Positions 20,832-43,674 of a DNA stretch of 64,000 nt are shown here, piece after piece (positions within the stretch are counted from its first letter, which is position 1; every line of letters begins with the position of its first letter). Origin of the DNA: Nocardioides marmotae (GTDB taxonomy: Bacteria > Actinomycetota > Actinomycetes > Propionibacteriales > Nocardioidaceae); NCBI RefSeq assembly GCF_013177455.1, contig NZ_CP053660.1:1922001-1986000 (forward strand). The letters are read 5' to 3'. The notes under the pieces were generated by a model. It was not told the DNA's origin, did not search any database, and saw nothing but the letters and a program-made list of their open reading frames with translations. Both the position numbers and the translations under genes were made by a program.

Positions 20832-20845
20832 TAGAACACGTTACA
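20832..20845. promoter_or_regulatory. KstR operator before the chsE fusion gene
   Basis: TAGAACACGTTACA fits the mycobacterial/rhodococcal KstR motif TnnAACnnGTTnnA at every fixed position. It lies 36 bp upstream of chsE1-chsE2 and 36 bp upstream of the divergent hydrolase gene, so it could control both. Confidence 0.8.
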
Positions 20846-20880: not shown

Positions 20881-23121
20881 GTGGACACGGACGGCTACAC
20901 CGAGGCGGACGCGGAGCGGGCGGAGTCGCTCGACGCGGTCCGCTCGGTCATCACCGAGGCGCTCGAGCGCGGCGGCGGCGACTGGCGGACTGACTGGGCG
21001 GCGCTTGCGGCCGACGGCCTGACCGCGCTGCCGGTGCCGGCCGAGCACGGGGGAGAGGGGCTCGGCCTGGCCGAGGTCGCGGTCCTGCTCCGCGAGACCG
21101 GCGCCCGCGCACGCCACCTGCCGGTGTGGGAGACGCTGTGCTGCGGCGCGCTCGTCCTGGCCGCGCACGGCACCGAGGAGCAACGGCAGGCGCTCCTGCC
21201 CGGCGTCGCCGCCGGCGACCTGCTGCTCACCCCCGCGATCCGCGAGGTCGGGGCGGGGCTCACCTCCGGGCTCACCTCCGCTCCGCCCGCCACGCGGTAC
21301 GACGGCGGCACGGTGTCCGGCCGCAAGGTCGGCGTGACGTACGCCGACGCGGCCGCCCGCCTGCTCGTCACCGCGACCGGGTCCGACGGCGAGCCGGTGC
21401 TCGTGCTCGTCGACCCCCAGGGCCCGGGCGTCGAGCTGCACGAGTCGCCCTCCTCGGCCCGGATCACCGAGCACACCGTCGTGCTCGACGGCGCGCCAGC
21501 AGAGCCGGTCGGTGGGCCGGGTGGCGGCGCGGACGCTGCGCGGTCGCTGCGCGAGCACGCCGTGGCCGGCCTGGCGCTCACCGCCGCGGGCCTCGTGGCC
21601 GGCGCGCGCGACCTGACCGCGGCGTACGTCAAGAGCCGCACGCAGTTCGGCCGCTCGCTCGCTCAGTTCCAGGCGGTCGCGATGCAGGTCGCCGACGTCT
21701 ACATCACCTCGCGGCTGGCCGACCTCGCCGCGGCCAACGCCGCCTGGCGCGTCGAGCAGCGCCTGGACGTGACCGACGACCTCGCCGTCGCGGCGTACTG
21801 GACCTGCGCGGAGGCGCCGCGCGCGATGCGCACCTGCCACCACCTGCACGGCGGGATGGGCGTCGACGAGACCTACCCGATGCACCACTACTTCTCGTGG
21901 GTCACCGACATCGTCCGCCTCCTCGACGCCCGCCCTGAGGACGTCCACGTCGAGGACCCCACGACCAAGAACCTCGAGCTCAGCGCCGACCAGCGCGCGC
22001 TCAAGGCCGAGCTGCGGACCTACTTCACCGGCCTCGCCGACCAGGACGCGCACGTCGACATGGGCCGCGACCGGCACGGCCCGACCTACCAGCGGGTGGT
22101 GCGGCAGATGGGCACCGACGGCTGGATGGGCGTCGGCTGGCCGCAGGAGTACGGCGGCCACGGGCTCGGCGAGATCGAGCAGACGATCTTCGCCAACGAG
22201 GCCCAGCGCGCCGACGTGCACCTGCCGGCCGTGACGCTGCAGACCGTCGGGCCGACCCTGATCCGCTACGGCACCGAGAAGCAGAAGGACCTGTTCCTCA
22301 AGCGGATCCTCGCCGGCGACGTGCACTTCGCGATCGGCTACTCCGAGCCCGACGCCGGCACCGACCTCGCCTCGCTGCGCACCACCGCCCGCCGCGACGG
22401 CGACCACTACGTCGTCAACGGGCAGAAGCTGTGGACCACCGGCGGCCACCAGGCCGACTACGTGTGGCTCGCGGTGCGCACCGACCCCGACGCGCCCAAG
22501 CACAAGGGGATCTCGATCCTCATCGTCGACACCACCGACCCGGGCTACTCCTTCACCCCGATCATCACCGCCGACGGCAGCCACCACGTCAACGCGACGT
22601 ACTACAACGACGTGCGGGTGCCGGTCGACATGCTGGTCGGCGAGGAGAACCAGGGCTGGAAGCTGATCACCACCCAGCTCAACCACGAGCGGGTCATGCT
22701 CGGCCCGGCCGGCCGGATCGAGGGGCTGCGCGACCGGGTCCTGGACTGGGCGACCAAGGCCGGCGTCGCCGACCACCCCGACGTCGTGGAGGTGATGGGG
22801 CGCGTGACCGCGGTCCTCCGGGTCAACGAGCTGCTCAACTGGGAGGTCGCGCGCGCCGCGGCCACCGGCGAGATCTCCGTCGGCGACGCCTCCTCCTCGA
22901 AGGTCTTCGCCGCCGACCAGGTCCAGCACCTCGCCGACGACCTGACCCGCATCGTGCACCGCTACGGCGACCCGGCGGAGGCCGAGACCCGGCACCTGGT
23001 GGAGTACCTCGACGCCCAGGCCAAGCGGAACCTCGTCCTCACCTTCGGTGGTGGGGTCCAGGAGGTGCAGCGCGAGCTGATCGCGATGTTCGGCCTCGGG
23101 CTGCCGAGGGTGCCGCGATGA
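20881..23121 (+). CDS. fused ChsE1-ChsE2 steroid acyl-CoA dehydrogenase
   Basis: This 746-residue protein has two complete acyl-CoA dehydrogenase domains. The N-terminal half (to about residue 357) resembles ChsE1/FadE28 (GLTALPVPAEHGGEGLGLAE, SRTQFGRSLAQFQAVAMQVA, CHHLHGGMGVDETYPMHHYF). The C-terminal half (from about 365) resembles ChsE2/FadE29 (RHGPTYQRVVRQMGTDG, LPAVTLQTVGPTLIRYG, YNDVRVPVDMLVGEENQGW, ending GLPRVPR). In M. tuberculosis these are two genes forming an alpha2beta2 enzyme that dehydrogenates the 3-carbon side-chain CoA ester. FadE34-type dehydrogenases are also fused, but each half here matches ChsE1 and ChsE2. ATGA overlap with the hydratase gene follows. The GTG start has GAGGACGAGGAG upstream. 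Confidence 0.88.
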   Translation: MDTDGYTEADAERAESLDAVRSVITEALERGGGDWRTDWAALAADGLTALPVPAEHGGEGLGLAEVAVLLRETGARARHLPVWETLCCGALVLAAHGTEEQRQALLPGVAAGDLLLTPAIREVGAGLTSGLTSAPPATRYDGGTVSGRKVGVTYADAAARLLVTATGSDGEPVLVLVDPQGPGVELHESPSSARITEHTVVLDGAPAEPVGGPGGGADAARSLREHAVAGLALTAAGLVAGARDLTAAYVKSRTQFGRSLAQFQAVAMQVADVYITSRLADLAAANAAWRVEQRLDVTDDLAVAAYWTCAEAPRAMRTCHHLHGGMGVDETYPMHHYFSWVTDIVRLLDARPEDVHVEDPTTKNLELSADQRALKAELRTYFTGLADQDAHVDMGRDRHGPTYQRVVRQMGTDGWMGVGWPQEYGGHGLGEIEQTIFANEAQRADVHLPAVTLQTVGPTLIRYGTEKQKDLFLKRILAGDVHFAIGYSEPDAGTDLASLRTTARRDGDHYVVNGQKLWTTGGHQADYVWLAVRTDPDAPKHKGISILIVDTTDPGYSFTPIITADGSHHVNATYYNDVRVPVDMLVGEENQGWKLITTQLNHERVMLGPAGRIEGLRDRVLDWATKAGVADHPDVVEVMGRVTAVLRVNELLNWEVARAAATGEISVGDASSSKVFAADQVQHLADDLTRIVHRYGDPAEAETRHLVEYLDAQAKRNLVLTFGGGVQEVQRELIAMFGLGLPRVPR

Positions 23122-23651
23122 ATCACCCCACGAGCGTGATCGACCCCGCCGCGCACGAGCGGATCATGGCCGAGGCCGAGCGGATCAAGGCGCTCGGCGA
23201 GGCCGCCGAGCGCGAGGCCCGCGACCCGGTCAACCAGCCCACGATCAACAACTGGCTCGAGGCGATGGGCAACGACAACCCGCGGTGGCGGGCCGGCGAG
23301 GCGCCGCCGTCGATGGCGCAGGTGTGGACGATGTACGGCCTCGGCGGCCGCCCGCCGGCCGACGACCCGCTGCACGGGATGATGAAGGTGCTCACCGACG
23401 AGGGCTGCACCGCGGTGCTGGGGACCAACTGTGAGCAGGAGTACCGCCGTACCCTCCGGGTCGGCGAGCAGGTCCGCGTCACCACCGCCCTGGACTCCGT
23501 CGTCGGCCCGAAGCGCACCGGCATGGGGGAGGGCTACTTCGTCACCTCCCGCAACACCTGGTACGTCGCCCACCCCGACGGGCAGAGCGAGGTCGTGGCC
23601 ACGATGCTCTTCCGCGTCCTGAAGTTCGTCCCGAAGGGGGCGGCCTCGTGA
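23118..23651 (+). CDS. MaoC-like hydratase subunit, N-terminal half of ChsH2 as a separate protein
   Basis: This 177-residue hot-dog-fold protein resembles the MaoC part of ChsH2 (INNWLEAMGNDNPRWRAGEA, SMAQVWTMYGLGGR, GTNCEQEYRRTLRVGEQVRV, TSRNTWYVAHPDG). In M. tuberculosis, ChsH2 is one chain of about 310 residues with this domain plus a DUF35 domain. Here the chain ends after the hot-dog domain and the DUF35 part is the next gene (GTGA overlap). With ChsH1 it should hydrate the enoyl-CoA side chain made by ChsE. Both overlaps indicate tight coupling in one operon. Confidence 0.82.
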   Translation: MNHPTSVIDPAAHERIMAEAERIKALGEAAEREARDPVNQPTINNWLEAMGNDNPRWRAGEAPPSMAQVWTMYGLGGRPPADDPLHGMMKVLTDEGCTAVLGTNCEQEYRRTLRVGEQVRVTTALDSVVGPKRTGMGEGYFVTSRNTWYVAHPDGQSEVVATMLFRVLKFVPKGAAS

Positions 23652-24070
23652 GCGCGGCGACCCCCGGGATCATCCGGCCGATGGTCGGCCGCGACAGCGC
23701 GTTCTTCTGGGAGGGCACGGCCGCGGGGGAGCTGCGGATCCAGTGCTGCCCCGCCTGCGGGGCGCTGCGCTTCCCGCCGGGCCCGTCCTGCCCGCGCTGC
23801 CACGCCTTCGACCAGTCCCACGTCGTCGCGGCCGGCACCGGCACCGTCTTCTCCTACGTCGTGCACCGGCATCCGCCCGTGCCCGGCAAGGAGCTGCCGA
23901 TCGTCCTCGCGCTCATCGACCTCGACGAGGGCGTCCGCATGGTCGGCGAGGTCGTCGACGCGGTGCCCGACGGTGGCGGCCCCGAGGACATCGAGATCGG
24001 CATGCGGCTGCGTGTCGACTTCCGCCGCGTCGACGACGAGCTGACCCTCCCGATCTGGCGGAAGGCCTGA
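23648..24070 (+). CDS. DUF35 OB-fold protein, C-terminal half of ChsH2 as a separate protein
   Basis: This 140-residue protein has a rubredoxin-like zinc ribbon (CPACG near residue 36 and CPRCH near 51) followed by an OB-fold (AAGTGTVFSYVVHRHPPVPG, then MRLRVDFRRVDDELTLPIW). DUF35 domains bind acyl-CoA and dock thiolase-like partners. The fused DUF35 domain of ChsH2 holds the aldolase Ltp2 in the mycobacterial complex. Because it is a free protein here, the hydratase-aldolase link would have to be non-covalent. Flanked by the MaoC half and chsH1. Confidence 0.85.
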   Translation: MSAATPGIIRPMVGRDSAFFWEGTAAGELRIQCCPACGALRFPPGPSCPRCHAFDQSHVVAAGTGTVFSYVVHRHPPVPGKELPIVLALIDLDEGVRMVGEVVDAVPDGGGPEDIEIGMRLRVDFRRVDDELTLPIWRKA

Positions 24071-24071
24071 G

Positions 24072-24485
24072 ATGACAACGACGACCACGACCCTGACCGC
24101 GGGGGACACCCTCCCGGCCTGGGAGCTGCCGATCACGCCCACCCTCGTGGTGAGCACGGCGATCTCGACCCGCGACTTCCAGGACGTCCACCACGACCGC
24201 GACATCGCCCAGGCGGCCGGGTCCAAGGACATCTTCGTCAACATCCTGACCTCCACCGCGCTGGTGGAGCGCTACGTCACCGACTGGGCCCACGCGCTCA
24301 CCGGCGGCTGGGACGCCGAGGTGCGCGGCATCGCCATCCGGCTCGGCGCCCCGGCCTACCCCTACGACACGCTCACCTTCTCCGGCACGGTCGAGTCGGT
24401 CGAGGACGGCGTCGCCACGCTGCGGGTCACCGGGTCGGTCCCGCTCGGCGACCACGTCACCGGCACCGTGAAGGTGGCCCTGTGA
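24072..24485 (+). CDS. chsH1: ChsH1-like enoyl-CoA hydratase subunit
   Basis: This 137-residue single hot-dog MaoC protein carries STRDFQDVHHDRDIAQ near residue 32, with the catalytic Asp/His pair of R-hydratases (D..H), and SKDIFVNILTSTALVERYVT after it. In mycobacteria ChsH1 supplies the active site and ChsH2 supports CoA binding; together they hydrate the 17-ene-acyl-CoA to a tertiary alcohol. It sits one base after the DUF35 gene stop and overlaps the ltp2 start by GTGA. Its length matches M. tuberculosis ChsH1 (about 129 residues). Confidence 0.85.
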   Translation: MTTTTTTLTAGDTLPAWELPITPTLVVSTAISTRDFQDVHHDRDIAQAAGSKDIFVNILTSTALVERYVTDWAHALTGGWDAEVRGIAIRLGAPAYPYDTLTFSGTVESVEDGVATLRVTGSVPLGDHVTGTVKVAL

Positions 24486-25651
24486 GCGCCGGCCTCTCGC
24501 GCCGGGCCGCGATCGTCGGCATCGGCGCCACCGAGTTCTCCAAGGAGTCCGGCCGCTCGGAGCTCCAGCTCTCGGTCGAGGCGGTCCTCGCCGCGCTCGC
24601 CGACTGCGGGCTCACCCCCGCGGACGTCGACGGCCTGACCACGTTCACCATGGACACCTCCTCGGAGATCGCGGTCGCCCGCGAGCTCGGCGTGCCCGAG
24701 CTTCGGTTCTTCTCGCGGATCAACTACGGCGGCGGTGCGGCCTGCGCGACCGTCCAGCAGGCCGCGATGGCGGTCGCGACCGGCGTCGCGGACGTCGTGG
24801 TCTGCTACCGCGGGTTCAACGAGCGCTCGGGCAGCCGCTTCGGCCAGGTCTCGGTGGCCGCGGCCACCCAGGTCAACACGAACGGCCTCGACAACGCCTG
24901 GACCTACCCGATGGGCCTCGGCACGCCCGCGGCGACGGTGGCGATGCAGGCGCGGCGCTACATGCACGAGTACGGCGCCACCTCGGCCGACTTCGGCCGG
25001 GTCGCCGTCGCGGACCGCCGGCACGCCGCGACCAACCCGGACGCGTTCTTCTACCAGCGGCCGATCACGCTGGAGGACCACCAGGCCTCGCGGATGATCG
25101 CCGACCCGCTGCACCTGCTCGACTGCTGCCAGGAGTCCGACGGGGCGGTGGCGCTCGTCGTCGTCTCGGCCGAGCGGGCCCGGGATCTGCCCCAGAAGCC
25201 GGCATACGTCGCCGCGGCGGCGCAGGGGAGCGGCCAGGACCAGTTCGTGATGACGTCCTACTACCGCGAGGACATCGGCATCCCCGAGATGGGCGTCGTC
25301 GGGCGGGAGCTGTGGCGCCAGTCCGGCCTGCGGCCCGACGACATGCCGGTGGCGATCCTCTACGACCACTTCACGCCGTACGTCCTCATGCAGCTGGAGG
25401 AGCTCGGCTTCTGCGGCCGCGGCGAGGCGCCGGGGTTCGTGGCCGACGGGGCGATCGAGCTCGGCGGACGGCTGCCGGTCAACACTCACGGCGGCCAGCT
25501 CGGCGAGGCCTACATCCACGGGATGAACGGCATCGCCGAGGGGGTGCGCCAGGTGCGTGGCACGTCGGTCAACCAGGTCGCCGGCGCCGAGCACGCCCTG
25601 GTCACCGCAGGCACCGGCGTGCCGACCAGTGGGCTCGTGCTCTCGGCCTGA
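24482..25651 (+). CDS. ltp2: Ltp2 steroid side-chain retro-aldolase (lipid-transfer/thiolase-like)
   Basis: This 389-residue thiolase-fold protein opens RAAIVGIGATEFSKESGRSE, contains FSRINYGGGAACATVQQAAM near residue 78 and YDHFTPYVLMQLEELGFCG near 295, then GGRLPVNTHGGQLGEAYIHG near 330. In the thiolase active-site position it has NYGGGAACA rather than a plain thiolase cysteine pattern. Ltp2 cleaves the hydroxylated side-chain CoA ester to androstenedione-type ketone and propionyl-CoA. Genes chsE, chsH2 (split), chsH1 and ltp2 reproduce the intracellular-growth operon of M. tuberculosis. It is the last gene before a hairpin. Confidence 0.88.
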   Translation: MSAGLSRRAAIVGIGATEFSKESGRSELQLSVEAVLAALADCGLTPADVDGLTTFTMDTSSEIAVARELGVPELRFFSRINYGGGAACATVQQAAMAVATGVADVVVCYRGFNERSGSRFGQVSVAAATQVNTNGLDNAWTYPMGLGTPAATVAMQARRYMHEYGATSADFGRVAVADRRHAATNPDAFFYQRPITLEDHQASRMIADPLHLLDCCQESDGAVALVVVSAERARDLPQKPAYVAAAAQGSGQDQFVMTSYYREDIGIPEMGVVGRELWRQSGLRPDDMPVAILYDHFTPYVLMQLEELGFCGRGEAPGFVADGAIELGGRLPVNTHGGQLGEAYIHGMNGIAEGVRQVRGTSVNQVAGAEHALVTAGTGVPTSGLVLSA

Positions 25652-25798: not shown

Positions 25799-26149
25799 CT
25801 AGGGCCGGAGCGCGTCGCTGAGCGCGGCCAGGGTGTCCTCGACGAGGCGGTAGAACGCCCAGCGCCCCCGCTGCTCGCGGACGACCAGGCCGGCGTCGAC
25901 CAGCTGCTTCATGTGGTGGGAGACGGTCGGCTGGGAGAGCCCGACGGGCTCGGTGAGGTCGCAGATGCAGGCCTCGCGCTCGGGGTGGGCGGCGATGAGC
26001 GACAGCAGGCGGACCCGGGTGGGGTCGCCGAGCGCCTTGAACATCCGCGCGAGCCGCTGCGCGTCCTCGGCCTCCAGGGCGCCGCCGGTGACGGTCGAGC
26101 AGCACGCGGTGCCGGGCGCGACGGCGGTCGGAGCGCTGGGGGAGGCCAT
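25799..26149 (-). CDS. arsR: ArsR-family arsenic-responsive repressor
   Basis: This 116-residue winged-helix protein has LARMFKALGDPTRVRLLSLI near residue 34, the metal-loop ACICDLTEPVGLSQPTVSHH near 60 and a wing VREQRGRWAFYRLVE near 90. Cysteines C16, C17, C60 and C62 could form an As(III) site. It is divergent from arsM-acr3-arsC with a palindrome in the 56-bp gap, so it should repress that operon until arsenite binds. Confidence 0.9.
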   Translation of the reverse strand: MASPSAPTAVAPGTACCSTVTGGALEAEDAQRLARMFKALGDPTRVRLLSLIAAHPEREACICDLTEPVGLSQPTVSHHMKQLVDAGLVVREQRGRWAFYRLVEDTLAALSDALRP

Positions 26150-26178
26150 GGCGGCAGTCTGCCAGACGGATTGACATC

Positions 26179-26194
26179 CGTCGATGTATCGACG
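26179..26194. promoter_or_regulatory. ArsR operator palindrome
   Basis: CGTCGATGTATCGACG has perfect 7-bp arms around GT. It overlaps the promoter region of arsM (a TTGACA -35-like hexamer at 26171-26176) and lies between the divergent arsR and arsM starts. Confidence 0.65.
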
Positions 26195-26205
26195 AGGCTC
26201 GATGC

Positions 26206-27027
26206 ATGAGCACGCCGAGCACGCCCCCGACCGACGACCAGCTGCGCGAGGAGGTCCGCAGCCGGTACGCCGAGGCCGCCGTCGCGGTGACCCGCGGCGC
26301 GACCAACACCGACCTCAACGACGCCCTCCAGGTCGTCGACGACACCGGCGCCGCGGCGTCGTGCTGCGGCGGCGGCGAGGTGACCGTGGGGGAGGCCTTC
26401 GGCGCGGGGCTGTACGCCGCCGAGGACCGCGACGGGCTGCCGGCCGACGCCGTCGCGGCCAGCCTCGGCTGCGGGAACCCGCTCGCGGTCGCGGACCTCC
26501 GCCCCGGCGAGCGGGTCCTCGACCTCGGGTCCGGTGGTGGCATCGACGTGCTGCTCTCGGCACGCCGCGTCGGGGAGACCGGTTTCGCCTACGGGGTGGA
26601 CATGACCGAGGAGATGCTCGACCTCGCCCGCGCGAACGCCGCCCGGGCCGGCGCCACGAACGTGGAGTTCCTGCGCGGCACCATCGAGGACGTCCCGCTC
26701 CCGGACGCCTCGGTCGACGTGGTGATCTCCAACTGCGTCATCAACCTCTCCGCGGACAAGCCGCGCGTGATGGCCGAGATGCACCGCGTGCTGGTGCCGG
26801 GCGGCCGGATCGGGATCTCCGACGTCGTGGCCGAGGACCACCTCACCGTCGCGGACCGGGCCGAGCGCGGCTCGTACGTCGGGTGCATCGCCGGCGCGCT
26901 CTCGCACTCGGAGTACCTGGACGGCCTGGCCGGCGCCGGTTTCGTCGACGCCACCGTCGAGCTCACCCACGAGGCCGTCCCCGGCATGCACGGGGCGATC
27001 GTCCGCGCGACGAAGCCCGGAGCATGA
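26206..27027 (+). CDS. arsM: arsenite methyltransferase ArsM
   Basis: This 273-residue SAM-dependent methyltransferase has an ArsM-type N-terminal part with a CC pair ([20 protein letters not shown]), [20 protein letters not shown] near residue 86, the SAM loop [16 protein letters not shown] and a later cysteine in [16 protein letters not shown]. These conserved cysteines hold As(III) during stepwise methylation to volatile or less toxic species. It is first in the operon, overlapping acr3 by ATGA, and lies behind the ArsR palindrome. Confidence 0.92.
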
Positions 27028-28106
27028 CCAGCTCCCTCACGCCCGACGCCCCCGTCGCGCAGCGACTGCCGCGCCTGGACCGGTACCTCCCGGTGTGGAT
27101 CGGCCTGGCGATGGCCGCCGGCCTGCTGGCGGGCCGCTGGGTGCCCGGCATCGCCGAGGCCCTCGACGCCGTCACCGTCGGGTCGGTCTCGCTCCCGATC
27201 GCGCTCGGCCTGCTCGTGATGATGTACCCGGTGCTGGCGAAGGTGCGCTACGACGAGGTCGGCACGGTCGCCCGCGACACCCGGATGATGGTGCTCTCGC
27301 TGGTGCTCAACTGGTTGGTCGGCCCGGCGCTGATGTTCGCGCTGGCCTGGATCTTCCTGCCCGACCTGCCCGAGTACCGCACCGGGCTGATCATCGTCGG
27401 CCTCGCCCGCTGCATCGCCATGGTGATCATCTGGAACGACCTGGCCTGCGGCGACCGGGAGGCCGCCGCGGTGCTCGTGGCCGTCAACTCGGTCTTCCAG
27501 GTGCTCGCCTTCGCGCTGCTCGGCTGGTTCTATCTCGATCTGCTCCCGGGCTGGCTCGGGCTCTCCTCGACCGGCCTCGAGGTCTCGCCGTGGGTGGTCG
27601 CCGGCAGCGTGGTCGTCTTCCTCGGCGTCCCGCTGGTCGCGGGCTACCTCACCCGCCGGCTGGGGGAGCGGCGCCGGGGCCGCGACTGGTACGAGCAGCG
27701 GTTCCTGCCACGGATCGGGCCCTGGGCGTTGTACGGCCTGCTCTTCACCATCGTGGTCCTCTTCGCCCTCCAAGGCGAGACGATCACCAGCCGGCCGCTC
27801 GACGTCGCCCGGATCGCCCTCCCGCTGGTCGTCTACTTCGCGCTGATGTGGGCCGGGTCGCTGCTGGTGGCCCGCCGCGCCGGACTCGGGTACGCCCGCG
27901 CCACGACCGTCGCCTTCACCGCCGCCGGCAACAACTTCGAGCTCGCCATCGCCGTCGCGATCGCGGTCTTCGGCGTCACCAGCGGCCAGGCGCTCGCCGG
28001 CGTCGTCGGGCCGCTGATCGAGGTGCCGGTCCTTGTCGGCCTCGTCTACGTCAGCCTCTGGGCGCGACGCTTCTTCCCCGACTCCCCACCTGGAGCACCG
28101 TCATGA
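27024..28106 (+). CDS. acr3: ACR3-family arsenite efflux transporter
   Basis: This 360-residue protein has about ten membrane helices. Family-like segments are [20 protein letters not shown] near residue 56, [16 protein letters not shown] near 98, [20 protein letters not shown] near 122 (with the conserved cysteine) and [20 protein letters not shown] near 300. Acr3 exports arsenite with proton motive force. It is cotranscribed with arsM and arsC (ATGA overlaps on both sides). Confidence 0.93.
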
Positions 28107-28555
28107 CCGAGCCCACCACCGGCCGCGTTCCGCAGGTCGTCTTCGCGTGCGTCCGCAACGGCGGCCGCTCGGTCGCCGCGCGGGTGCTCGCCGAGCACTA
28201 CGCCGGCGGGAGGGTCCTCGCGCTCTCCGCCGGCACCCGGCCCGGGGAGCAGATCCACCCCGAGGTCGCCGACGCCCTCGAGCGGCTCGGGATCGACACG
28301 TCCCGCGAGCGGCCGCAGCACCTCACGACCGAGATGGTGGCGGCCAGCGACCTCGCGATCACGCTCGGCTGCGGGGAGGAGTGCCCCTACGTCCCCGGCG
28401 TCACCTACCGCGACTGGCCGGTCGACGACCCTGGCGGGCAGGACCCGGCCACCGTCCGCCGCATCGTCGCCGACCTCGACGCGCGGGTCCGCGACCTGCT
28501 CGCCGAGCTCGTGCCCGACCTCGAGCTGCCGCCGTCGGTCCTCGACGGAGCATGA
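28103..28555 (+). CDS. arsC: arsenate reductase, mycothiol-type low-molecular-weight phosphatase fold
   Basis: This 150-residue protein has the LMW-phosphatase P-loop as FACVRNGGRSVAA near residue 16 (CX5R) and the acid loop region YRDWPVDDPGGQ near 108. GCGEECP near 98 has a further cysteine pair. In actinobacteria these enzymes attach arsenate to mycothiol and release arsenite with mycoredoxin, feeding Acr3 and ArsM. Last gene of the ars operon. Confidence 0.88.
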   Translation: MTEPTTGRVPQVVFACVRNGGRSVAARVLAEHYAGGRVLALSAGTRPGEQIHPEVADALERLGIDTSRERPQHLTTEMVAASDLAITLGCGEECPYVPGVTYRDWPVDDPGGQDPATVRRIVADLDARVRDLLAELVPDLELPPSVLDGA

Positions 28556-36194: not shown

Positions 36195-37076
36195 TCAGGC
36201 CAGGTCGAGCACCACGTCGCCGAGCACCGGGGAGCCGTCGCGGTCGCCGCCGGCGATCTCGGCCGAGGCCAGGACCCGCCCGTCCTCGCACCACCCGCGG
36301 GTGCGGATGGTCTCGCCGGGGAACACGACACCGGCGAACTTCGCTGCGAACCCGGCGACCTTCGCCGCGTCCCCGTCGAGCAGCGCGTCGGTCAGCGTGC
36401 GCAGCACGATCCCGTAGGAGCACAGCCCGTGCAGGATCGGCGCCGGGAAGCCGGCGGCCGCGGCGAAGGCCGGGTCGGCGTGGAGCGGGTTCCGGTCGCC
36501 GCAGAGCCGGTAGAGCAGCGCCTGCTGCGGGGTGACGTCGTACGACGCCTCGGTGTCGGGCGCGCGGTCGGGCAGGGCCACCGGGGTCGAGGACCCGCGC
36601 TCACCGCCGAAGCCGCCCTCGCCGCGCACGAAGATCGAGGACCGCACCCGCCACAGCTCGCGGCCCTCCGGGGAGGTCGCGACGCCCTCCTGCCAGATGA
36701 CCGCGGCCTTGCCCTTGTCCCAGACGTCGGTGAGCGTGGTGGCGATGGTGGCCGTGCCGCTGGTGGGCAGCGGTCCGCCGGTCACGGTGATCGCCTGCGA
36801 GCCATGGACGACCTGGGCCAGGTCGATCTCGCAGCCCGGCAGGTCCAGCGGCGGCGGGTCGGTGGCGTGGAAGGTCGGCGCGACCACGCCGAAGGACGGC
36901 AGCACCTGGAGGCTCGGGCCGTCGAGGGTGTAGCGCAGTGCGGCGGGGGAGAGGTTGTCGCCGGCGCGCGAACCTGCGCCGATGCCGAGGTGGTAGAGCA
37001 GGACGTCGCTCTCGGCCCAGCTGAACTCGCGGGAGCCGAGGTCGGCGCCGATCGCCACGGACGGGTCGATGGGCAT
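36195..37076 (-). CDS. MaoC-family 2-enoyl-CoA hydratase beside kstD (Hsd4B/ChsH3-like)
   Basis: This 293-residue double hot-dog hydratase has an N-terminal degenerate domain (ESDVLLYHLGIGAGSRAGDN, then QVLPSFGVVAPTFHATDPPP) and a C-terminal active domain with the hydratase-2 motif YRLCGDRNPLHADPAFAAAA near residue 190 and PILHGLCSYGI near 212. The same pair (kstD plus MaoC gene) occurs in M. tuberculosis (Rv3537-Rv3538), where the hydratase works in side-chain beta-oxidation of cholesterol. Its start overlaps the kstD stop by one base (TGATG). Confidence 0.85.
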   Translation of the reverse strand: MPIDPSVAIGADLGSREFSWAESDVLLYHLGIGAGSRAGDNLSPAALRYTLDGPSLQVLPSFGVVAPTFHATDPPPLDLPGCEIDLAQVVHGSQAITVTGGPLPTSGTATIATTLTDVWDKGKAAVIWQEGVATSPEGRELWRVRSSIFVRGEGGFGGERGSSTPVALPDRAPDTEASYDVTPQQALLYRLCGDRNPLHADPAFAAAAGFPAPILHGLCSYGIVLRTLTDALLDGDAAKVAGFAAKFAGVVFPGETIRTRGWCEDGRVLASAEIAGGDRDGSPVLGDVVLDLA

Positions 37077-38821
37077 CAGGCGGTCTCCTCCTGGCTGGTG
37101 GTTGCGGGGGTGGCTGCGGGCCGGGCGGCGGCCGCGGCGAGGTCCTCGGCGGCGAGGTAGCCGAAGACGAGCGCCGGGCCGATCGTGCCACCGGGACCGG
37201 GGTAGGTGTGGCCCATCACGGCGGAGGAGACGTTGCCGGCGGCGTACAGGCCCTCGAGCACCGAGCCGTCCTCGCGCAGCACCCGGGCCCGCTCGTCGGT
37301 GACCAGGCCGCCCTTGGTGCCGAGGTCGCCGGGGACGATCTGGACGGCGTAGAAGGGGCCCTCGTCGATGGTGTGCAGCGAGGGGTTCGGCTTGACCGTG
37401 GGGTCGGAGTAGTACTTGTCGTAGGCCGACTCGCCGCGGTGGAAGTCGGCGTCGACGCCGGTCCGCGCGAAGCCGTTGAACCGCTCGACGGTCCGCTCCA
37501 GGGTCGCGGCGGGGACGCCGATCTCGGCGGCGAGGCCGGCGAGGGTGTCGGCCTTCTTGACCACGCCCTCCTTGTACCACCGGCCGGGGAAGGGCTGGCG
37601 CGGCATGAGGCCGGCGAAGACGTAGCGGTTGCGGTAGCGCTGGTCGAGGACCATCCACGACGGCACGTGCCCGACGCCGGTCTGCTCGCCGCGGTAGATC
37701 TCGTGGACGGCCTCGACGTAGGGGAGCGCCTCGTTCATGTACCGCTCGCCGGCCTGGTTGACGATGATCGACCCGGGCAGGTTGCGCTCGGCCAGGCAGA
37801 ACCACGGGCGCCCCGGCAGCGGGATCGTCGGGCCCCACCAACCGTCGTCCATCAGGTCGGTGCTCGCCCCGGCGCCCATGCCGGCGACGAGCCCGGCGCC
37901 GGTGTTGTTCTGCGAGCCGGTCGTCCACTCCACCGAGGTCGGCCGGGGCAGGTACTTCTCGCGCAGCTCGGCGTTGCGCTCGAAGCCGCCGCTGCCGAGG
38001 ACCACGCCGCGGCGGGCGCGGACGACCTGCTCGACGCCGTCGCGCAGCACGCGCACGCCGGTGACCCGGCCGTCCTGGACGACGAGGTCGCGCAGCTCGG
38101 TCTCGTAGTGCAGCGGCACGCGGGCGTCGGCCAGGCCCTGGCGCAGCCCGATCGCGATCGCGTTGCCCATGGCGTACATCCGTCGCCGCAGCAGGCCCGC
38201 GAGGATCCGCTTGAGGGTCACCTTGACCATCGTCAGCGGCCCGCGCAGCGTGCGCATGCCGAGGCTGATCTTCCGGAAGTCGGCCTGGGTGACGATCATG
38301 TTGGCCGGCGCCTTGGTGTACGGCGGGTGCAGCCGCTCGAGCTCGGCGCCCAGGAAGCTGGCGTCCAGCGGGACCGGCTCGACGGTCCGGCCCTTCGGCC
38401 GCCCTCCGGGCTGCTCGGGGTGGTAGTCGGCGTAGTCGGGGACCCAGGTGAACCGCACCGGCGTGCGGGCCTTGAGGAAGTCCATGACCTCCGCGCCGCG
38501 GTCGACGTAGGTGTCGCGGCGGACCTTGGGGACGACGTCGCCGACGATCGAGTCGAGGTAGAGCTTGGAGTTCTCCAGCGGATCGTCCTGGCCGGCGGCC
38601 TTGAGCGCGTAGTTGCCCGGGATCCAGACGCCGCCGCCGCTGCGGGCCGTGGACCCGCCGAAGTAGGCGCTCTTCTCCAGCAGGATCGTGTCGAGGCCGC
38701 GATCGGCGGCGGCGAGCGCGGCGCTCATGCCGGCCGCGCCGGCGCCCACGACGACGACGTCCACCTCGCTCGGCAGGTCGGTCGGTGATCCGGTGGAGGT
38801 GGCGTGCGGTGACCCCGTCAT
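37076..38821 (-). CDS. kstD: 3-ketosteroid Delta1-dehydrogenase
   Basis: This 581-residue flavoprotein has the FAD motif [20 protein letters not shown] near residue 22 and [20 protein letters not shown] near 50. The C-terminal motif [20 protein letters not shown] near 530 carries the tyrosine and glycine that act on ring A in KstD. It introduces the C1-C2 double bond into 3-ketosteroids, which with 9-alpha-hydroxylase opens ring B. First gene of a minus-strand unit with a MaoC hydratase; the start lies 11 bp from the KstR box. Confidence 0.94.
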
Positions 38822-38831
38822 GGCGCAAAAC

Positions 38832-38845
38832 TGTAACAGGTTCTA
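38832..38845. promoter_or_regulatory. KstR operator between kstD and hsaG
   Basis: TGTAACAGGTTCTA matches TnnAACnnGTTnnA at every fixed position. It is 11 bp from the kstD start and 45 bp from hsaG, so one site can control both divergent units. Confidence 0.82.
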
Positions 38846-38889
38846 GCATGGCGTCCTGTCGTCCGACCCCCCCTCTGAGAGGTCCAGAC

Positions 38890-39804
38890 ATGACCAAGCT
38901 GACCGCGGCCATCGTCGGGCCGGGCAACATCGGCACCGACCTGATGTACAAGCTGCTGCGCTCCGCCGCGAACGGCGGGAGCGTCGAGCCGCGCTGGATG
39001 ATCGGCGTCGACCCGACCTCCGAGGGGCTCCGGCTCGCCGCCGAGCAGGGTCTCGAGGCCTCCCACGAGGGCGTGGACTGGCTGCTCAAGCAGGACGAGC
39101 TGCCCGACCTGATCTTCGAGGCCACCTCGGCCTACGTGCACCGCGAGTACGCCCCGCGCTACGAGGAGGCCGGCATCCGCGCGGTCGACCTGACGCCCGC
39201 CTCGGTCGGGCCGGCCGTCATCCCGCCGGTCAACGGCCAGGAGCACCTCGGCGCGATGAACGTCAACATGATCACCTGCGGCGGCCAGGCCACCATCCCG
39301 ATGGTCGCCGCGGTCTCGCGGGTCGCGACGGTGCCGTACGCCGAGATCGTCGCCTCGGTCTCCAGCGTCTCCGCCGGCCCGGGCACCCGGGCCAACATCG
39401 ACGAGTTCACCCGCACCACCGCGGCGGGCGTCGAGAAGATCGGCGGCGCCGAGCGCGGCAAGGCGATCATCATTCTCAACCCGGCCGAGCCGCCGATGAT
39501 CATGCGCGACACGATCTTCTGCGCCGTCCCGCCCGACGCCGACCGCGACGCGATCGTGCAGTCGGTCATCGCGATGGAGAAGGCGGTCCAGGAGTACGTC
39601 CCGGGCTACCGCCTGCTCCAGGAGCCCCAGATCGACGAGCCGTCGGCCGCGACCCAGGGCCAGGTGAAGGTCTCGATCTTCGTCGAGGTCGAGGGCGCCG
39701 GCGACTACCTCCCGCCGTACTCCGGCAACCTCGACATCATGACCGCCGCCGCGACCCAGGTCGGCGACAACATCGCCCGCTCGATCCTCGCCGGGAAGGC
39801 CTGA
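38890..39804 (+). CDS. hsaG: acetaldehyde/propanal dehydrogenase (acylating) HsaG
   Basis: This 304-residue NAD-dependent acylating dehydrogenase has [19 protein letters not shown] near residue 9 (Rossmann loop) and the catalytic cysteine in [17 protein letters not shown] near 130. HsaG converts the aldehyde released by HsaF (propanal from ring A) to propionyl-CoA and is channelled with HsaF. It is one base before hsaF. Its neighbour across the divergent promoter is kstD, as in M. tuberculosis. Confidence 0.92.
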
Positions 39805-39805
39805 G

Positions 39806-40891
39806 ATGACCTCGACGAACCGCGACACCCTGGCCCGCACCTGGAAGGACGCCCACGGCGGCGACCTCGACCTGCGGCTGACCGACACCTGCCTGCGCGA
39901 CGGGTCGCACCACAAGCGCCACCAGTTCACCGCCCAGGAGGTCCACGACATCGTCGAGGCCCTGGACACCTCCGGCATCCCGGTGATCGAGGTGACCCAT
40001 GGCGACGGGCTGGGCGGCTCCTCGTTCAACTACGGCTTCTCCCGCACCCCCGAGCAGGAGCTGATCCGGATCGCGGCGGAGACCGCGCGGACCGCCCGGA
40101 TCGCCTTCCTCATGCTCCCCGGCGTCGGCACCAAGGACGACATCCGCGCGGCCCAGGACAACGGCGGCCAGATCTGCCGGATCGCCACCCACTGCACCGA
40201 GGCCGACACCTCGATCCAGCACTTCGGGCTCGCTCGCGAGCTCGGCCTGGAGACCGTCGGGTTCCTCATGATGAGCCACACCCAGCCGCCCGAGGTGCTG
40301 GCCAAGCAGGCGCGGATCATGGTCGACGCCGGCTGCCAGTGCGTCTACGTCGTCGACTCCGCCGGCGCCCTGGTCATGGAGCAGACCGCCGACCGGGTCT
40401 CCGCCGTCGTCGCCGAGATCGGCTCGCAGGCCGACGTCGGCTTCCACGGCCACGAGAACCTCGGCCTCGGCGTCGCCAACACCGTCATCGCCGCCCGCGC
40501 GGGCGCCACCCAGATCGACGGCTCGGTCCGCCGCTTCGGCGCCGGCGCCGGCAACACCCCGCTCGAGGCGTTCATCGGCGTCTGCGACAAGCTCGGCTGG
40601 CGCACCGGCGTGGACTTCCTCCAGATCGTCGACGCCTCCGAGGACGTCATCAAGCCGGCCATGCCCGAGGAGTGCCAGCTCGACCGGATGACCCTGATGA
40701 TGGGGTACGCCGGGGTCTACTCCTCCTTCCTCAAGCACGCCGGCAACGCCGCTGAGCGCTACGGCGTCCCCGGCGCGAAGATCCTGCTCGAGGCCGGCCG
40801 CCGCAAGCTGATCGGCGGCCAGGAGGACCAGCTCATCGACATCGCGCTGATGCTCAAGGCCGAGCAGGACAAGGCCGCCGCGAACGCCTGA
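39806..40891 (+). CDS. hsaF: 4-hydroxy-2-oxo acid aldolase HsaF
   Basis: This 361-residue DmpG-type aldolase has [20 protein letters not shown] near residue 26 (metal and catalytic Arg/Asp/His) and [20 protein letters not shown] near 211 (metal-binding HxH). It splits 4-hydroxy-2-oxohexanoate to pyruvate and propanal, which HsaG takes up. The hydratase HsaE, usually beside it, is not in this window. A strong 88-bp hairpin follows 37 bp after the stop. Confidence 0.93.
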
Positions 40892-42741: not shown

Positions 42742-43674
42742 ATGGCCGAGATCGAGGGCAGGTTCGCCCAGGACAGCGTCCGCCGCTCGGCCAAGGCCGG
42801 CGACCTCACGCTGAACTACTACGAGGCCGCGCCCGAGGTCTCGTCGGGCTCGACCGGCGGGTCGACCCAGGTCGGCGGCGGGCTGCCGCTGGTCATGCTG
42901 CACGGCGGCGGCCCCGGCGCCTCGGCGTGGTCGAACTTCGGCCCGGCCCTGCCGCACTTCGCCCAGCACTTCCGCACCCTGCTGGTCGACCAGCCGGGCT
43001 TCGGGGGCTCCGACAAGCCGCCGGTGGTCGGCAACTACTACCGCTTCGCCGCCGACCACGTCGTCCGGCTCCTCGACGAGCTCGGCATCGAGCGCGTGCA
43101 CCTGCTCGGCAACAGCCTCGGCGGCGGTACGGCGATGCGCCTCGCGCTCACCCACCCCGACCGGGTCGGGCGCCTGGTGCTCATGGGGCCCGGCGGGCTC
43201 TCGCTCAACCTCTTCCACGCCGACCCCACCGAGGGCGTCCAGCGGCTGATGGACTTCGGCGCCGAGCCGACCCGGGAGAAGCTCCGGGCGTTCATCTCCA
43301 CCATGGTCGTCGACCAGTCGCTGGTCACCGACGAGCTGGTCGAGCAGCGCTTCGCCGACGCGACCGCGCCCGGCGCGCAGGACGCGATGCGCTCGATGGG
43401 GATGTCCTTCTGGAACCCCGAGACCGCCGAGGACGGCATGCTCTGGCGCGAGGCCCACCGGCTGCGCAAGCACACCCTGCTCACCTGGGGCCGCGAGGAC
43501 CGGGTCAACCCGCTCGACGGCGCGATGGTGGCGCTCAAGCTGATCCCGAAGGCGCAGCTCCACGTGTTCCCGAACTGCGGGCACTGGGCACAGATCGAGG
43601 CGGCCGAGGAGTTCGCCGAGGTCACCACCGCCTTCCTCGCCCGCCACGTGGAACGCTCCCGGAAGGCCACCTGA
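42742..43674 (+). CDS. hsaD: 4,9-DSHA hydrolase HsaD
   Basis: This 310-residue alpha/beta hydrolase of the meta-cleavage product class has MLHGGGPGASAWSNFGPALP near residue 53 (oxyanion), LLGNSLGGGTAMRLALTHPD near 125 (Ser nucleophile), a catalytic Asp in GREDRVNPLDG near 252 and His in NCGHWAQIEAAEE near 281. It splits 4,9-DSHA to HIP and a dienoic acid. A 12-residue Ser/Gly insertion after residue 33 is unusual. Translation is coupled to hsaC (TGATG). Confidence 0.95.
   Translation: MAEIEGRFAQDSVRRSAKAGDLTLNYYEAAPEVSSGSTGGSTQVGGGLPLVMLHGGGPGASAWSNFGPALPHFAQHFRTLLVDQPGFGGSDKPPVVGNYYRFAADHVVRLLDELGIERVHLLGNSLGGGTAMRLALTHPDRVGRLVLMGPGGLSLNLFHADPTEGVQRLMDFGAEPTREKLRAFISTMVVDQSLVTDELVEQRFADATAPGAQDAMRSMGMSFWNPETAEDGMLWREAHRLRKHTLLTWGREDRVNPLDGAMVALKLIPKAQLHVFPNCGHWAQIEAAEEFAEVTTAFLARHVERSRKAT

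Follow-up and report, generated by a model that had tools for sequence, protein, structure and literature searches.

A ChsH2 subunit divided between two overlapping genes in a steroid-degradation operon of Nocardioides marmotae

In the known enzymes that shorten the steroid side chain, ChsH2 carries a MaoC (hot-dog) domain that belongs to the hydratase and a DUF35 domain that serves the aldolase Ltp2. Is a single chain required, or may the two domains be encoded separately? This question is raised by a stretch of 64,000 nucleotides (nt) from Nocardioides marmotae (contig NZ_CP053660.1, positions 1,922,001 to 1,986,000; hereafter the window), where the two domains of ChsH2 lie in two genes that overlap at a GTGA tetranucleotide. 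We consider it highly probable that ChsH2 is here a pair of complete overlapping genes, likely the result of one old fission, with the MaoC product likely forming a hydratase with ChsH1 and the DUF35 product an aldolase with Ltp2.

Two genes for one subunit

The five genes of the operon all lie on the plus strand in the order chsE, maoC, duf35, chsH1, ltp2, with the following features.

20832..20845, strand not assigned: KstR-like operator palindrome TAGAACACGTTACA, found by a TNNAACNNGTTNNA pattern search with 0 mismatches; ends 35 nt before the chsE start
20881..23121, plus: chsE, fused ChsE1-ChsE2-type acyl-CoA dehydrogenase (ACAD), 746 amino acids (aa), GTG start, two ACAD halves
23118..23651, plus: maoC, stand-alone MaoC (hot-dog) half of ChsH2, ATG to TGA, 177 aa, PF13452
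23648..23651, plus: GTGA, maoC stop overlapping duf35 start, from the open reading frame coordinates
23648..24070, plus: duf35, stand-alone DUF35 half of ChsH2, predicted aldolase-docking subunit, GTG to TGA, 140 aa
24072..24485, plus: chsH1, catalytic MaoC subunit, 137 aa, motif DFQDVHHD
24482..25651, plus: ltp2, Ltp2 retro-aldolase, 389 aa, YDHF (294) and GEAY (341-344)

The maoC and duf35 reading frames differ, and neither contains an internal stop. The other junctions are similarly tight, with an ATGA overlap between chsE and maoC, a GTGA overlap between chsH1 and ltp2, and a gap of 1 nt between duf35 and chsH1.

Each half is recognizable as its part of ChsH2. The MaoC half matches Mycobacterium tuberculosis ChsH2 (4W78/4WNB) at E 3e-41. 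For the DUF35 half, the best PDB sequence match is Thermomonospora ChsH2(DUF35) (6OK1_B, E 9e-36), and the Pfam domains zf-ChsH2 and OB_ChsH2_C are both found, with Cys34/37/48/51 as the zinc ribbon cysteines. An AlphaFold2 model of this half, built with 21 sequences, reached a mean confidence (pLDDT) of 87, with a range over the five models of 87 to 52; Foldseek placed it closest to 6OK1_B (TM score 0.85/0.90) and 6OK1_D (0.83/0.91), both at 49% identity, followed by 9MYR_B. The window thus holds both ChsH2 halves complete. We found no match to a second ChsH2 MaoC elsewhere in the window's genome at E<=1e-12; two other zf-ChsH2 matches (L001 and L003) were considered as a second ChsH2 and rejected, a MaoC match being absent from their 3-kb loci.

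The partner proteins are equally well defined. ChsH1, the partner gene with the Asp/His motif close to maoC, matches 4W78_B at E 1e-41, and Ltp2 matches 6OK1_A at E 1e-180. The YDHF and GEAY motifs of Ltp2 fall at the positions of Tyr294 and Tyr344, the catalytic tyrosines of TcLtp2 (PMC12329534). Residues 36-349 of ChsE resemble Tcur3481 and residues 370-744 resemble Tcur3483, which are the two chains of 6WY8. By Ltp2, Nocardioides oceani (96%) is the closest named relative among the 80 top-scoring matches, out of at least 590 stretches that matched.

An earlier note on this DNA had described separate MaoC and DUF35 genes with their own starts and a GTGA overlap, next to a fused ChsE. This description is borne out, with exact coordinates, a ChsE chain of 746 aa and, as detailed below, a ChsE that is fused nearly throughout the family. 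The note had also regarded the DUF35 unit as truncated, which is incorrect: the N-terminal helix, zinc ribbon and OB fold are all there.

Recurrence of the split across Nocardioidaceae

To place this arrangement, we used a survey of 294 Nocardioidaceae genomes with a MaoC match cut-off of E<=1e-12. A match was present in 126 genomes and absent from 168. Eight of the 126 yielded nothing better than weak, paralogue-like matches (E 2e-19 to 6e-13) and were set aside. Where another genome held an additional weak match, this was likewise kept out of the resulting set of 118 loci, in which the window is counted. ChsH2 is split in 84 of these loci and fused in 34. Genera were told apart by genus code. 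The window's own genus contributes 90 loci, 80 of them split and 10 fused; outside it, split loci number 4 of 28, all in a second genus, coded g5, that has 4 split and 12 fused loci. Since 168 of the 294 family genomes have no match, a statement about most of the genus refers to most of its operon-bearing members.

Beyond the family, the split was absent from both samples that we examined. The first, a set of named loci, comprises the 80 highest-ranking of the stretches that matched, which number at least 590, excluding the window and the window's own genome; it overlaps in species with the 118-locus set and is hence not independent of it. Seventeen of these named loci are split and 63 fused. 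All 17 are among the 23 Nocardioidaceae loci, and ChsH2 is fused in 57 of 57 loci from elsewhere. The second drew 396 genomes from across the phylum; its 27 non-family matches at E<=1e-20 were fused without exception. A protein search with DUF35 gave 901 matches at E<=1e-20, and the visible organism names among the best 120 were Nocardioides; this search takes only proteins of similar length, so that fused forms could not appear in it.

Other fusions accompany the split. ChsE is fused in 117 of the 118 family loci (one unassigned) and in 4 of the 57 named loci outside the family (L034, L035, L066 and L076, from two Rhodococcus, Gordonia and Dietzia), where the fusions are possibly separate events. 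In 16 of the 118 family loci (L170, L175, L179 and L189-L201), MaoC, DUF35 and ChsH1 form a single chain, which is the reverse of the split. The same three-domain fusion was also seen in the named loci L023 and L078, the latter (Catelliglobosispora) lying outside the family. The co-occurrence of ChsH2 fission and ChsE fusion proposed in the earlier note is supported by the 84 split loci, the 117 fused ChsE and the fused outgroups, but the note's view that the arrangement is rare does not hold in the window's genus. It had further named fused forms in close strains as a finding that would refute the split. Such forms do exist, as the 10 fused genus loci, but they do not make the split an artefact, because many species carry it.

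Could the two genes nonetheless be one gene broken by a frameshift introduced in sequencing or assembly, or a pseudogene in decay? An insertion or deletion at the overlap could indeed bring both frames into register. However, the split recurs in many independent genomes, at 84 of the 118 loci in the family; the junction sequences vary by locus, and all three maoC-duf35 frame relations occur (79, 3 and 2 loci), which together exclude an error for practical purposes. Decay is opposed by the ratio of nonsynonymous to synonymous substitution rates (dN/dS), which is below 1 for all genes in the 10 pairs tested. We assign this explanation a negligible probability. Sequence motifs are retained as well: the zinc-binding Cys4 pattern and the ChsH1 motif DFQDVHHD are each conserved in 118 of 118 loci, and the Ltp2 motifs YDHF and GEAY in all 89 loci that could be judged, 29 of the 118 being too short.

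An NTGA overlap joins maoC and duf35 in 73 of the 84 split loci (36 ATGA, 35 GTGA, 2 TTGA); among the remaining 11, TGATG occurs in 6. Similar NTGA overlaps are found between chsE and maoC (109 of 117 loci) and between chsH1 and ltp2 (107 of 118). The single frame relation common to 79 of the 84 split loci might suggest that programmed frameshifting across the overlap yields some fused ChsH2. Yet the NTGA overlap alone imposes this relation, no shared slip motif is visible by eye at the junctions, and 5 of the 84 loci have a different relation. Programmed frameshifting is thus very improbable, and two separately translated proteins remain the preferred reading.

Origin and spread of the split

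Because the outgroups are all fused, in the named loci (57/57) as in the phylum sample (27/27), we take the fused form as ancestral and the split as derived. A single clade of split loci was not rejected by the approximately unbiased (AU) test for DUF35 (p-AU 0.765), MaoC (0.845) or ChsH1 (0.592), values that come from quick trees, where the constrained topology scored above the unconstrained one.

Two findings complicate this history. First, a tree that unites all split loci in one clade is rejected by the C-terminal half of ChsE (ChsE-C), with a p-AU of 5e-5. Second, the fused loci L095, L115 and L119 stand near split loci in several trees, which leaves room for later re-fusion. The first conflict is explained here by recombination: upon removal of six loci (L130, L149, L152, L174, L151 and L167), ChsE-C no longer rejects one split clade (p-AU 0.926). 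Four of the six are clearly chimeric, and the signal is weak in L151 and L167. In the clear cases (L130, L149, L152 and L174), identities to split L124 and to fused L177, which shares their genus code g5, are as follows.

ChsE-C: 69-74% to L124; 83-90% to L177 (and 85-94% to L186, likewise fused and of g5)
MaoC: 83-89% to L124; 51-54% to L177
DUF35: 77-84% to L124; 58-59% to L177
ChsH1: 80-81% to L124; 65-69% to L177
Ltp2: 88-91% to L124; 83-84% to L177

The simplest reading of these comparisons is that the split segment was transferred horizontally into the g5 split loci, where it would begin at the boundary of chsE and maoC and leave the resident chsE in place. The segment would have been inherited by most of the sampled operon-bearing members of the window's genus and moved as a block into four g5 loci.

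More than one fission, or a fission followed by re-fusion, could also account for the pattern. A combined tree of ChsE-C, ChsH1 and Ltp2, which ignores recombination, requires at least 4 changes between split and fused forms, and the rejection by ChsE-C points the same way. Against this, MaoC, DUF35 and ChsH1 are each compatible with one split clade, and the objection from ChsE-C disappears without the six loci. We regard multiple events as unlikely, though still deserving of real weight. Re-fusion in L095, L115 and L119, as suggested by the combined and gene trees, is possible but not required; we dropped it as unproven, since a clade confined to split loci is compatible with MaoC, DUF35 and ChsH1 alike. 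One old fission remains our preferred account.

Repeats at the MaoC/DUF35 junction were considered as a cause of the fission and rejected. Repeat-like motifs, some of them weak, occur in 11 of 118 junctions, the window's not among them. Their density there is 2.2 per kb; two further spacers have 1.1 and 1.8 per kb, and coding regions 0-0.5. As a side observation, palindromic repeats lie at the junction in fused L115, L119, L148 and L187 and in split L122 and L158; one frame encodes the linker (VVEE.., VVELVETT), and another gives the MaoC stop in L122 and L158. The repeats are dispersed. One pattern has 121 copies in genome G093, 96 in G260 and 3 in G248, whereas the window's genome has 0 (as does the backwards control). 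A second has 138 copies in G098, 53 in G066 and 8 in the genome of the window, with some sites counted twice where they overlap. The L182 junction has similar motifs, but no more than 3 copies of this second pattern occur in the genome concerned.

Proposed working of the split subunit and known systems

How might the separated halves function? By analogy with their homologues, the MaoC half would pair with ChsH1 and hydrate the 17(20)-ene acyl-CoA, and the DUF35 half would dock on Ltp2, which would cleave the hydrated product into propionyl-CoA and a 17-ketone. The GTGA overlap of stop and start may couple translation and even out the dose of the halves. With the peptide linker gone, the hydrated intermediate with its C3 side chain would cross by diffusion or through a weak contact. 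The operon would likely remove the last, propionyl part of a sterol or bile-acid side chain.

Experiments on related enzymes are consistent with this division of labour. When ChsH2-MaoC and ChsH2-DUF35 of Comamonas testosteroni are produced as separate proteins, the hydratase and aldolase activities are both preserved, and the aldolase cannot do without DUF35 (PMC12502768). Sal remains able to cleave its substrate when DUF35 is the sole domain of Shy supplied to it (PMC11321319). The same paper cites work in which the DUF35 domain appeared unimportant for both activities.

Alternatively, the split proteins may still form one hydratase-aldolase complex, the tether being replaced by a non-covalent contact between MaoC and DUF35 or Ltp2. 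The gene overlaps throughout the operon would favour such co-assembly. On the other hand, the Shy-Sal linker is judged flexible, and the Shy-Sal model has no well-defined interface besides it (PMC12329534); ShyMaoC failed to co-purify with Sal (PMC11321319). Nor do we see a long docking tail on MaoC, since the split MaoC tail has a median of 7 aa (4-20; 83 of 84 parsed) against 16 aa for the fused linker (4-57; 78 of 91 parsed). A non-covalent complex seems to us a minority prospect, roughly as doubtful as repeated fission. It is far less probable that the freed DUF35 protein serves another thiolase. Thiolase-fold enzymes with stand-alone DUF35 partners do exist (6ESQ, 7PXP, 5M3K), but duf35 sits between maoC and chsH1-ltp2, and its product is nearest to ChsH2(DUF35) in both sequence and fold. 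We therefore continue to favour two enzymes, MaoC with ChsH1 and DUF35 with Ltp2.

Several points weigh against this proposal. The binding partner of each half is inferred from homologues. The Comamonas authors state that efficient removal appears dependent on each complex forming properly (PMC12502768), and the activity of Sal-Shy(DUF35) is more than two-fold below that of full Shy-Sal and is lost on dilution (PMC11321319). In the igr operon of Nocardioides simplex VKM Ac-2033D, KR76_12335, the DUF35 gene by position, is the sole gene of five without the mark 'induced by phytosterol' (PMC7807495 Table 3). Finally, DUF35 has a dN/dS of 0.31-0.61 in four window pairs, exceeding the other four genes of each pair. 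Relaxed evolution after fission was considered, and no conclusion was drawn from DUF35/Ltp2 distance ratios (55 split and 33 fused, 88 of the 118 loci): split and fused pairs, which are not independent of each other, give similar ratios in all bins but the closest of the four, where the split pairs are higher (2.54 split versus 1.74 fused).

The surroundings suit a role in steroid metabolism. Further features of the window are as follows.

37076-38821, minus: 3-oxosteroid 1-dehydrogenase (KstD), 898 bits versus a curated cut-off of 788
38887-39804 and 39806-40891, strand not given: HsaG/HsaF-type genes
about 42760-43641, strand not given: HsaD, 471 bits versus a curated cut-off of 400

The presence of these genes identifies the window as a steroid-degradation neighbourhood. 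The box upstream of chsE fits the KstR consensus perfectly; with at most 1 mismatch, the pattern occurs 4 times in the window, compared with a shuffle mean of 1.3, and 3 of 100 shuffles reach 4. These matches suggest that the operon is likely KstR-controlled. A second perfect KstR-like box lies at 38832-38845, between the 3-oxosteroid 1-dehydrogenase and HsaG-type genes. Just downstream of the operon (25799-28555) comes an ArsR-family regulator gene on the minus strand, followed by genes that by eye resemble candidates for an arsenic methyltransferase, an ACR3-type pump and an arsenate reductase.

What does the split mean for the tether? The hydration equilibrium is unfavourable and the aldolase pulls it forward; tight coupling has been called metabolically desirable (PMC11321319, PMC8399759); channelling by ChsH1-ChsH2-Ltp2 is named as an open question (PMC12329534). 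Tentatively, and with a little less than even credence, we suggest that loss of the tether was no handicap: the cut form would have prevailed in most of one genus and then, as a block, ousted its tethered counterpart from another. Physical linkage as a means of coupling the two steps would accordingly be dispensable in nature, related lineages having reached a three-domain chain instead. Split, two-domain and three-domain forms within one bacterial family offer natural material for testing the role of the tether, in a group of bacteria studied for steroid biotechnology.

Among known systems, laboratory-split ORF40 (ChsH2) of Comamonas testosteroni TA441 likewise has MaoC and DUF35 as separate proteins (PMC12502768), but that split is engineered, whereas the split in the window is natural and common to many species. 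Shy-Sal of Proteobacteria (9MYR) also uses DUF35 to join a MaoC hydratase to a thiolase-fold aldolase; unlike the window's proteins, it keeps the domains on one chain, has just one MaoC, which is catalytic, acts on C5 side chains and carries a Cys3His zinc ribbon (PMC11321319, PMC12329534). Non-steroid thiolase-fold enzymes with a separate bound DUF35 chain resemble the window in that respect, but at lower similarity. CasC, like the window's ChsE, unites two ACAD halves in a single polypeptide; its substrates have C5 side chains, whereas the window's ChsE is nearest to the Thermomonospora pair 6WY8, described in the same review as preferring C3 (PMC8399759). For the igr operon of N. simplex (KR76_12325-12345), five genes are likewise listed; the P. 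simplex locus (L010) is split, KR76_12335 is labelled 'acyl dehydratase, casN', and the text consulted does not mention a split (PMC7807495). In the literature searched, of which most subscription papers were not part, we found no description of a natural ChsH2 split. ChsH1-ChsH2-Ltp2 of Mycobacterium and Thermomonospora (4W78, 4WNB, 6OK1) shares with the window homologous domains, the aldolase tyrosine motifs and the zinc ribbon, but there MaoC and DUF35 form one chain. The two genes of the window are a non-standard split variant, and the natural split is a new form of a known enzyme complex.

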